Of a stretch of 36,658 nt of DNA, positions 16,670-35,460 are shown piece after piece. The notes under the pieces were generated by a model. That model was not told the origin of the DNA. It was given only the letters and a program-made list of their open reading frames with translations, and ran no database searches. Numbering within the stretch: position 1 is the first letter of the stretch; each line of letters starts with the position of its first letter. The DNA is taken from the IMG/VR virus record IMGVR_UViG_3300032116_000635, positions 1 to 36,658 of that record, one strand, 5' to 3'. This stretch comes from a virus. The translations under genes were made by a program, and so were the position numbers.

Positions 16670-16884
16670 TGCCCGGCGGCGGAGGCGGAGGCGGAGGCGG
16701 AGGCGGAGGCGGAGGCGGAGGCGGAGGCGGAGGCGGAGGCGGAGGCGGCGGAGGCGGCACACCTCCTCCACCGCCGCCACCACCCCAAAATTGCATGTGC
16801 GTCCCGCCTCCACCATCTTCAGGCCGATTCGTTCTTTCATCAAATGCCGGCACGCTGCAATGGATCGCCACGGAGGAGTGCTAA
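16669..16884 (+). CDS. Poly-Gly / poly-Pro small tail protein with TEEC ending
   Basis: 71 residues: Met-Pro, then 28 Gly, Thr, 8 Pro, a CMC-containing turn, another Pro run and a C-terminus LQWIATEEC. The Gly run is written by eleven exact GGAGGC hexamers. Its last residues share W-[LI]-x-T-E-E-C with the protein ending at 11058, so the real conserved part may be only the C-terminal 25 residues, with the Gly/Pro parts acting as a flexible or rigid spacer. Translational coupling (TAATG) and a GGAGG ribosome site support real expression. Confidence 0.6.
   Translation: MPGGGGGGGGGGGGGGGGGGGGGGGGGGGGTPPPPPPPPQNCMCVPPPPSSGRFVLSSNAGTLQWIATEEC
16681..16746 (+). repeat. GGAGGC hexanucleotide microsatellite, 11 copies
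   Basis: Eleven perfect tandem GGAGGC units, extended on both sides by GGC/GGA codons. Copy-number change keeps the frame and would lengthen or shorten the poly-Gly tract by two residues per unit. The following CCT/CCG/CCA tract (16762-16785) is partly complementary, so a large hairpin is possible. Confidence 0.95.
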
Positions 16885-33265: not shown

Positions 33266-33540
33266 TTTTTCAGTTTTTGGCGCGGCGAGGCGGGGCGAGG
33301 CGCGGCGGGGCGTGGCGGGGCGCGGCGGGGCGGGGCGCGGCGTGGCCGAGCTGGGCGTGGCAAGGCAAACACACTGCATCCTTTGGGGTGCAGCAGTTTG
33401 CCAAGGCGGGGCGCGGCGGGGCGGGGCTGGGCATGGCGCGGCGGGGCTGGGCGCGGCATGGCTTGGCAAGGCAAACACACGGCGCTTCACGGAGCGCCGC
33501 AGCTTGCCAATGCAAGAAAACCAAAAACTAAACAAACCAA
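33266..33540. other. Noncoding interval dominated by the pentamer/hairpin element
   Basis: All six frames look open across parts of this interval simply because GGCNN repeats lack stops. The small ORFs here overlap each other and shift with the period-5 repeat, so I call none. The only clear content is the duplicated element (33279-33510) and an A-rich stretch up to ATG 33541. Confidence 0.8.
33279..33510. repeat. Two tandem [GGCNN]n - ACACAC - hairpin - GCAGYTTGCCAA modules
   Basis: Module 1 (33279-33404) has 18 near-perfect GGCNN pentamers, ACACAC, an 18-nt hairpin (33375-33392), then GCAGTTTGCC and AA. Module 2 (33405-33510) has 14 pentamers, ACACAC, an unrelated-sequence 18-nt hairpin (33481-33498), then GCAGCTTGCCAA. 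Both hairpins have 7 pairs and a 4-nt loop. GGCAAAC (33364-33370) pairs with GTTTGCC (33396-33402); in module 2 TTGGCAAG (33463-33470) pairs with CTTGCCAA (33503-33510). Sequence differs but structure is kept. Extreme G>C strand bias. Confidence 0.85.
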
Positions 33541-33739: not shown

Positions 33740-34192
33740 ATGGCAGGAGAATGGATCAAAGTAGAGAACCACCTACACGAGAAGGTCGAGGTGGCGGCGA
33801 TTGCCGACCACACCGGCCTCGACCTCGACGCGGTGGTCGGGAAGCTCGTGAAGGTGTGGGCGTGGGCGTCACGGAATTGTCACGGTGACGGCGTGACATC
33901 TGTCACGGCCCTCCGTGTCATTCGTGAAATCACGCGCGTTGAGAACTTCGACGAAGCACTCTCAAATTGCGGGTGGATTCGCATCAAGGGCGACAAAATC
34001 GAGTTTGTAAACTTCGACCGCCACAATAGCCAAACCGCTAAAGAGCGTGGACTTGCCACTCAGAGAAAGTGGAAACAAAGAGCCAAAGAATCTGTCACGC
34101 CAGTGTCACGCTCACACCGTGACAAAAGCGTGACTAGAGAAGAGAAGAATAAAGAGCGGTCTTGCGACCGCTTCATCCCCACCTGCGTATGA
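33740..34192 (+). CDS. Replication-initiator-like protein (lambda O/DnaD-like position)
   Basis: 150 residues. A winged-helix-like N-terminal domain is suggested by WIKVENHLHEKVEVAAIADH (about 5-24), VVGKLVKVWAWASRN (about 32-46), ALSNCGWIRIKGDKIEFVNF (about 73-92); the C-terminus is basic and low in complexity. It lies directly upstream of a DnaB-type helicase, the place of lambda O. Two clusters of GTCACG sites lie inside the gene (33868-33908 and 34094-34134), the arrangement expected of an initiator that binds an origin within its own gene. ATGA overlap with dnaB (34189-34192). Confidence 0.7.
   Translation: MAGEWIKVENHLHEKVEVAAIADHTGLDLDAVVGKLVKVWAWASRNCHGDGVTSVTALRVIREITRVENFDEALSNCGWIRIKGDKIEFVNFDRHNSQTAKERGLATQRKWKQRAKESVTPVSRSHRDKSVTREEKNKERSCDRFIPTCV
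33868..33908. repeat. Iteron cluster 1 inside the initiator gene
   Basis: Four GTCACG sites: 33868 (+), 33879 (+), 33892 (-), 33902 (+); start spacings 11, 13 and 10 bases. GTCAC-G-GTGAC at 33879-33889 is a perfect palindrome. The three + copies fall in all three coding frames, so conservation is of DNA, not protein. Probable initiator-binding part of the phage origin. Confidence 0.7.
34094..34134. repeat. Iteron cluster 2 inside the initiator gene
   Basis: Four GTCACG sites: 34094 (+), 34105 (+), 34118 (-), 34129 (-); spacings 11, 13 and 11. The cluster has the same 41-bp span as cluster 1 and lies 226 bases to its right, near the gene's 3' end. An A-rich stretch (AAAGAATAAAG-like, around 34140-34155) follows and could be an unwinding site. 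Confidence 0.7.
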
Positions 34193-35460
34193 CAACGAGC
34201 GCAAAGATTATCCAGATGGCACCCAGCGTCCCATTGAACGAAACAGCAGAGAAGGCCGCGATCTCGTGCATCCTGCAAAACTTCGAGTGCCTGAGGGTGA
34301 TGTCATGGCCGGAGGAATTGTTTTTTTACGAGGCGCACAAAATCATTTTGACCACGGCTAAGGAACTCGCCGACACCGGCATGGCGACCGATCCCTTCGC
34401 GGTGCAATCGCGGCTGGAGCAGAAGGGTCTGCTGGATGCCGTCGGGGGGATGCACAACTTCACCGAGCTGATGGATTTCATGCCCACGGGCGATGCCAAG
34501 ACGGCGGCATGGCACCGGAGCGCGCTAATGGACGCGGCGAGGTATCGCCGGGCGCTCGCGGCGGTGCGTGAGGCTGAGGGGGCTTTCCTGCGACAGGAGG
34601 GAGACATTGCCAGCGTTTCGCTCGAGCTTTCGGAAGCGGCGATGATGGTGGACCGGCCGAGAGTTTCGACCAGAGACCTTCTGACGAAGCTCACGGAAGA
34701 ACTCGAAAACCACACGCCTGCGGAGGCGTTTGGGACAGGGATCGAATGGCTGGACCGTGTGACGAATGGCGGCGTCAAGCGGGGGGAACTCCTGACGATC
34801 GGTGCGCCGACCTCGGGAGGCAAGTCGATCCTGCTCCTTCAGATGGCGGTGCAGGCGGTTCTGGCTGGCAAAAAGGTGGCGGTCTTCAGCTTGGAGATGC
34901 CGGCGACCCAAGTCCTCGCTCGCATGGTCTCGCACCTGGCGGGCTTCAATGTGGGCATCTTCCGAATGGCTGGGGCCAAGGGTTCGGTGAACAAGGACAT
35001 GCTGGCGAAATTCAACTCGGCGTCGTCTTTGCTTTCGCAGTCGGGCCTCGTGGTCGAGTCGGGCTTCACCGACATGGAATCAATCGATGCCTCGGCGCGT
35101 GACCTTGCAGGCAAGGGAAACGCTGACCTCGTGATCGTGGACTATGTGCAACTCGTTCACTTGAGAGCCATGGCCTCGAACGAGACACGCGAGCAGCATG
35201 TCTCGGAGATCACCCGGCGGCTCAAGGCGCTGGCCTTGCAGCTCAACATCGCGGTCGCCACGGCGTCCCAGCTCAACGAGGACGGCAAACTGCGCGAGTC
35301 CCGCGCCATCGGGATGCACAGCGATCATGTGTGGATGATCAAGCACGAGGACAAGTCGTTCATTTCACTAGACAAAAACCGCGACGGCGAGCGCGGCCAC
35401 GCGGTGCCGGTCCACATGGACGGCTCCCTCGCCAAATTTACCCAACTACAACAATCATGA
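34189..35460 (+). CDS. Replicative DNA helicase, DnaB family
   Basis: 423 residues from ATG 34189 (an in-frame ATG at 34162 is inside the preceding gene). N-terminal DnaB domain (about 18-110, with ILTTAKELADTG and FAVQSRLEQKG), linker, then RecA-like motor: Walker A GAPTSGGKS (205-213), SLEM (234-237), Walker B LVIVDYVQL (314-322, Asp318) and the C-terminal motif with KNRDGERG (near 396-403). It unwinds DNA at the fork. ATGA coupling with the upstream initiator gene and with the RuvC-like gene. Confidence 0.92.
   Translation: MTTSAKIIQMAPSVPLNETAEKAAISCILQNFECLRVMSWPEELFFYEAHKIILTTAKELADTGMATDPFAVQSRLEQKGLLDAVGGMHNFTELMDFMPTGDAKTAAWHRSALMDAARYRRALAAVREAEGAFLRQEGDIASVSLELSEAAMMVDRPRVSTRDLLTKLTEELENHTPAEAFGTGIEWLDRVTNGGVKRGELLTIGAPTSGGKSILLLQMAVQAVLAGKKVAVFSLEMPATQVLARMVSHLAGFNVGIFRMAGAKGSVNKDMLAKFNSASSLLSQSGLVVESGFTDMESIDASARDLAGKGNADLVIVDYVQLVHLRAMASNETREQHVSEITRRLKALALQLNIAVATASQLNEDGKLRESRAIGMHSDHVWMIKHEDKSFISLDKNRDGERGHAVPVHMDGSLAKFTQLQQS

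Follow-up and report, generated by a model that had tools for sequence, protein, structure and literature searches.

We asked whether a short phage gene could encode a replication initiator and at the same time contain the origin on which that initiator acts. The gene lies near the end of the window, by which we mean the whole stretch of viral DNA analysed (36,658 nucleotides, IMG/VR record IMGVR_UViG_3300032116_000635). A first-pass annotation of the window had proposed a lambda-like origin inside the initiator gene, and comparison suggests that this was right in substance, with the parts arranged in the order known from lambda. In our assessment, the gene probably codes for a small replication initiator and also contains the phage replication origin, in the way set out in the mechanism proposed below. 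The larger pattern is visible only with the relatives of the gene.

The initiator gene and its neighbourhood

The gene product, P0001, matches the profile phrog_2509, annotated as replication initiation protein (E 1.4e-37), as well as phrog_9474 with the same annotation, and phrog_2509 is matched by 96 of 96 aligned family members; the description "initiator-like" was thus well founded. P0001 gave no Pfam match at E 0.1, and PDB sequence and fold searches with it returned no relative and no fold at E 0.001 or better. An AlphaFold2 model of P0001, built with 96 relatives, is confident up to about residue 90 (ten-residue blocks at pLDDT 86-97, the first block at 73), followed by a helix spanning residues 98-116 and a low-confidence tail. 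By our reading of the model, residues 1-95 are predicted to be helical and winged-helix-like.

The direct neighbour is a DnaB-type helicase, as first annotated. Upstream of the initiator are found a Sak4-like annealing protein, an exonuclease-like protein and a DUF669 protein weakly similar to single-strand binding proteins, and these genes together with the initiator and the helicase are a replication and recombination module.

Two other repeated stretches were noticed in the window. Positions 33279-33510, before the initiator gene, contain (NGGCN) units arrayed with a period of 5 bp, in which the spacer bases vary freely and a 111-bp period is also present twice; similar arrays occur in 8 of 341 loci (L002, L047, L063, L241, L248, L274, L313 and L317). 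At 16674-16748 the hexamer CGGAGG is repeated 12.5 times with a 98% match.

Table 1. Coordinates of the initiator gene, the putative origin parts and the adjacent helicase in the window
Feature	Position	Strand	Remarks
Initiator gene P0001, 150 aa	33740..34192	+	
Cluster 1 site GTCACG	33868..33873	+	doubtful: stays put in GTTACG/GTAACG relatives
Cluster 1 iteron GTCACG	33879..33884	+	
Cluster 1 iteron GTCACG, inverted	33892..33897	-	
Cluster 1 iteron GTCACG	33902..33907	+	
Codons of helix 98-116, putative recognition helix	34031..34087	+	modelled at pLDDT ~70; covariation with repeat word
Lys110 codon	34067..34069	+	best predictor column of third iteron base; outside every iteron here
Cluster 2 iteron GTCACG	34094..34099	+	
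Cluster 2 iteron GTCACG	34105..34110	+	
Cluster 2 iteron GTCACG, inverted	34118..34123	-	
Cluster 2 iteron GTCACG, inverted	34129..34134	-	
Purine tract AGAGAAGAGAAGAA	34136..34149	+	candidate part of unwinding region
Short AT-rich stretch TAAAGA after purine tract	34150..34155	.	
Hairpin AGCGGTC-TTGC-GACCGCT	34155..34172	.	DNA fold and shuffles
DnaB-type replicative helicase	34189..35460	+	PF03796, E 2.4e-36; start codon overlaps initiator stop

Two groups of repeats whose word changes between relatives

The gene contains eight exact GTCACG/CGTGAC sites in two groups lying about 190 bp apart. The spacings of 11/13/10 and 11/13/11, about one helical turn, were measured exactly as first described; the eight sites also stand, but the spans, both originally given as 41 bp, are 40 bp (33868-33907) and 41 bp (34094-34134). 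An additional palindrome, GTCAC-G-GTGAC, had been pointed out and is indeed present (GTCACGGTGAC, 33879-33889), but it is not conserved, because some close relatives (L019) have GTCACGCTGAC instead. In the whole window GTCACG occurs 28 times, compared with 18.4 expected (sd 3.7).

Relatives of the gene were collected by a first scan of viral contigs, which gave 73, and by wider searches reaching Pseudomonas, Xanthomonas, enterobacteria, Vibrio, planctomycetes and verrucomicrobia. Once 120 duplicates, 2 short genes and L001, L072 and L074 had been taken out, 341 distinct genes related to phrog_2509 were kept, the window's own gene being counted as L002, to which it is identical over the first 480 nt. 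L131 and L133 were left out of the rule and tree counts below, which therefore refer to 339 genes. Repeats were typed by 6-mers because the 5-mers GTAAC and GTTAC are reverse complements of each other and thus ambiguous.

Results showed that at matching gene positions the 73 relatives of the first scan carry GTCACG, GTTACG, GTAACG or GTCCCG, switched in both groups. Over the 341 genes, the repeat types were GTAACG (194), GTCCGC (53), GTCACG (37), GTTACG (22) and GTCCCG (17), with GTCACA (5), GTGACG (3), CTAACG (2), GTCGGA (2) and six singletons as rarer types. Two groups in matching places were found in nearly all of them. When the groups were scored separately, over narrower stretches and with 5-base cores, both had the same word in 321 of 341 genes, different words in 11 and too few sites in 9; an earlier scoring over wide stretches (257 same, 76 different, 8 too few) was lower, since sparse real sites were outnumbered by chance words from the first 300 nt. 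Homologous initiator genes lacking the repeats had been named in the first-pass annotation as evidence against its reading. Relatives of 55-79% identity do mostly lack GTCACG, but they carry another hexamer at the same positions. The idea that a paired design of equal length is an unusual property did not hold beyond the window's clade, to which equal length is peculiar; elsewhere in the family a group contains about 2-7 sites.

One site behaves differently from the others. The site at 33868, in codons Ala-Ser-Arg, reads GTCACG even in relatives that have GTTACG or GTAACG elsewhere; since it has not followed the change seen at the others, it is perhaps not a functional site.

Origin-like elements follow the second group

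Directly after group 2 the window contains the purine tract, AT-rich stretch and hairpin listed in Table 1. A purine run at this place, usually AGAGAAGAGAAGAGA, is 8 or longer in 86 of 87 representatives and 14 or longer in 71 of 86, whereas runs of 14 occurred in 0 of 87 at the control gene positions 1-300. The stretch after it is AT-rich, with a mean A+T of 0.69 over 12 nt. The hairpin of the window has a folding energy of -8 kcal/mol as DNA (z -2.58), equalled by 1 of 200 shuffles. A perfect stem of at least 6 within 45 nt after the tract was found in 29 of 86 representatives and was absent in 57. Shuffled sequence gave such a stem in 3% of cases, and control stretches in 2 of 86 and in 5 of 77. 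Between members, the stem sequences are not the same. GC skew of the window gave no signal at 34 kb, and its cumulative minimum is near 27 kb.

These elements bear on the strongest of the alternatives, namely that the sites are in-gene operators by which the initiator limits its own expression or blocks RNA polymerase, the origin being elsewhere. The sites do lie inside the gene, the initiator may also regulate itself, and a few members (L082, L087, L122 and L127) have at least two own-type sites shortly before the start codon. However, no own-type hexamer was found within 200 nt upstream in 312 of 337 genes, and a purine tract, an AT-rich stretch and a hairpin beside group 2 are parts of an origin, not of an operator. 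We regard this alternative as unlikely. Operator and origin functions could coexist. Separately, in the Rac-type L087 and L082 an inverted GTAACG pair with an operator-like look lies about 18-33 nt ahead of the initiator gene, just before its start codon.

A helix of the initiator covaries with the repeat word

Across the relatives, the variable residues of helix 98-116 track the iteron word, and an RKxK helix together with GTCACG recurs in the window clade and in the far lineages of L330, L134, L144 and L404. Among all alignment columns, residue 110 has the highest mutual information with the third iteron base (1.06 bits), followed by columns 106, 113 and 51. An own-type iteron overlaps the codon of residue 110 in only 1 of 341 genes. 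In the 339 genes the pairs of residue 110 and third base were Val-class/A in 198, Lys/C in 113, Met/T in 22, Met/G in 2 and others in 4, so that 335 of this derivation set fit a rule of Lys-C, Met-T/G and Val/Gln/Thr/Ala-A.

In a tree of the remaining columns, 17 independent contrasts gave about 14 joint changes, none contrary and about 3 unchanged when branch support was ignored. Only 15 of the 146 inner branches of this tree are well supported, and these alone leave 3, 1 and 2 contrasts for the three pairings, none of them contrary and too few for significance.

The rule was written down before the test genes were fetched. Three further scans, after dropping 161 already-used genes and 4 without a helix match, provided 70 new genes, and the rule was correct in 48 of them. 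Val-A held in 34 of 35, the miss (L555) having visible GTAACG sites with another word counted more often; Lys-C held in 10 of 12, one miss (L496) being a near-tie with GTCACG and the other (L530) a new word. Gln-A failed, with 4 of 23 correct, and there was no Met case among the 70. The one-residue rule as stated, with Gln placed in the Val class, was therefore rejected. This outcome indicates that the rule holds for Lys and Val in phrog_2509 relatives, is incomplete for Gln and needs neighbouring residues. In a later fit, which has exceptions, Gln would go with A if the next residue is Glu or Asp or if residue 113 is His, and with C if the next residue is Arg. Taken together, these data hint at a rough protein-to-DNA recognition rule behind the joint switching of repeat and helix. 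The new word of L530, GTGTCG, occurs with the helix segment KNKQSER and falls outside the residue 110 rule.

Such covariation also makes it very unlikely that the repeats are bound by a host protein or another phage protein and not by the gene's own product. Sites as short as these would be compatible with a foreign reader, but the word switches between close relatives along with the initiator helix, and similar helices accompany the same repeat type even in distant lineages; a host factor is disfavoured because it would not follow a phage helix.

The repeats are kept as DNA

The start frames of the eight sites, in order, are 2,1,2,0,0,2,0,2, meaning that all three frames are used. We compared the gene with 2000 synonymous-codon shuffles preserving the protein and the codon pool, in which GTCACG had a mean count of 1.68 and a maximum of 6, and the top count of any hexamer was also at most 6; as the observed 8 was never reached, the protein sequence does not by itself account for the repeats. 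Thus, although VT, SR and RD pairs recur at the sites, an origin of the repeats in codon or peptide repeats such as Val-Thr is hardly tenable, given sites in all three frames and on both strands, the shuffles, and the 5-bp period of the purine tract, which being below 15 bp cannot be a peptide repeat. Among representatives, the best-hexamer count exceeded all 100 codon shuffles in 54 of 87 and did not in 33. Frames, codon-shuffle excess and a family-wide two-group layout with a changing word consolidate the first-pass view that the sites are conserved as DNA.

Exchange of the putative origin and its reader

Comparison of L002 (GTCACG) with L016 (GTTACG) gave an identity of 83-100% in segments starting at gene positions 1-121, 50-93% at 136-376 and 93-100% from 391. 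GTCACG and GTTACG members as a whole show high DNA identity to about nt 135 and low identity over about 136-390, save for the codons around NFDRH, and past 391 identity is back to 90-100% in 7 of 8 pairs, including pairs that are unlike in the first 135 nt. A given downstream gene start was found with 2-4 iteron types. As repeat types combine freely with downstream genes, the origin and its reader look like an exchangeable cassette. In a contig of a Verrucomicrobia MAG (L137:346-801), a GTCACG group 1 is joined to a GTTACG group 2 with the matching helix, which is either a real recombinant or an assembly chimera.

Proposed mechanism and significance

We infer that the initiator binds the GTCACG iterons in both groups, helix 98-116 probably reading the variable bases, with Lys110 going with C as the third base. 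With both groups occupied, the DNA would be distorted and the neighbouring purine/AT-rich stretch beside the hairpin opened; the DnaB of the phage, product of the following gene, would be loaded there, giving the fragment its presumed origin activity. Origin and reader lie interleaved within about 260 bp, so that the whole specificity unit can be exchanged by recombination, and relatives have changed to different iteron words together with helices to match.

Extending this to the family, we tentatively propose, at slightly less than even chances, that in a widespread family of phage and prophage initiators the origin and its reader form one interleaved, exchangeable cassette of about 260 bp, with specificity residing largely in few helix residues (Lys, Val or Met at residue 110 for C, A or T at the third base, modified by neighbours), and that it is swapped to escape origin-targeting agents such as resident prophages, satellites, decoy origins or origin-directed nucleases.

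As far as the literature was searched, the origin anatomy of phrog_2509 relatives and the residue-base covariation appear to be new: no title or abstract describing these repeats or the rule was found in that search, which covered subscription journals little. The analysis predicts an origin to the level of single sites for a large phage and prophage family whose members are mostly annotated just as "replication initiation" or "hypothetical" protein. It also brings a partial recognition rule within reach of simple binding assays, and origin incompatibility and origin-targeting defence would become directly testable in these phages.

Comparison with known systems

The lambda origin, whose iterons and AT-rich region are described in two papers (PMC5043065, PMC6022878), is alike in having origin repeats in the initiator gene (gene O, PF04492), followed by an AT tract rich in purines and by an imperfect palindrome. 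The lambda order of iterons, AAAAGAAAAAAGAAAAGA, ATTATT and imperfect palindrome is the order of the window, the lambda palindrome being our own reading of the sequence where a perfect-stem search gave a different stem. Lambda differs in its four inverted-repeat iterons of 18-19 bp in one array, compared with 6-bp iterons in two groups, and in its P-type loader, whereas in the window the phage DnaB itself follows the initiator and no helicase loader gene (P or DnaC) lies beside it. A P- or DnaC-like gene does adjoin the initiator in the relatives L078, L082, L083, L084 and L087. Lambda O itself matches PF04492, which neither P0001 nor any of the 96 family members does, and hhalign gave a probability of 0.2% between lambda O and the window protein; with no detectable relation of the proteins, the likeness is therefore one of working parts, not of membership.

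In lambdoid phages, in-gene and type-specific origins are known, and Furth and Yates (1978) and Moore et al. (1979) reportedly described the replication specificity types of lambda, phi80 and 82, with in-gene origins and cognate initiators. Compared with these types, the phrog_2509 relatives belong to another protein family, with many more types and a wider host range.

Closer to the window are the phrog_2509/phrog_9474 initiators of epsilon15, Xanthomonas CP2, E. coli TL-2011b and some Rac prophages, which share a homologous N-terminal domain and have in-gene repeats, mostly in the same two places. Those examined have 225-332 aa; the 150-aa window protein is without their C-terminal part. We rejected phrog_2509 relatives as a mark of Rac oriJ in E. 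coli K-12, where the N-terminal domain of YdaU differs. This protein (Rac prophage, L702:4620-5477) has an N-terminal DUF1376 domain (PF07120), absent from P0001 and L087, and C-terminal residues resembling those of the protein from strain 442/2; its gene contains three TGTTCAAAC repeats at positions 393, 426 and 450. K-12 ydaU may thus be a further in-gene origin read by a different protein, and is a candidate location of oriJ. For the mobile elements of Pf-5, the origin described is a plasmid-like one only (PMC2647930).

Finally, the RepA_N/ori modules of PLE satellites and the Odn nuclease, as described (PMC8263062), resemble the present case in that DNA-binding domain and origin repeats covary and are swapped as a module while the remainder is conserved, with an origin-directed nuclease as the proposed selecting force. 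In the satellites the origin lies in a separate noncoding region, whereas in the window the sites are interleaved with the reader within a single gene, and in phrog_2509 relatives the covariation can be traced to single residues.
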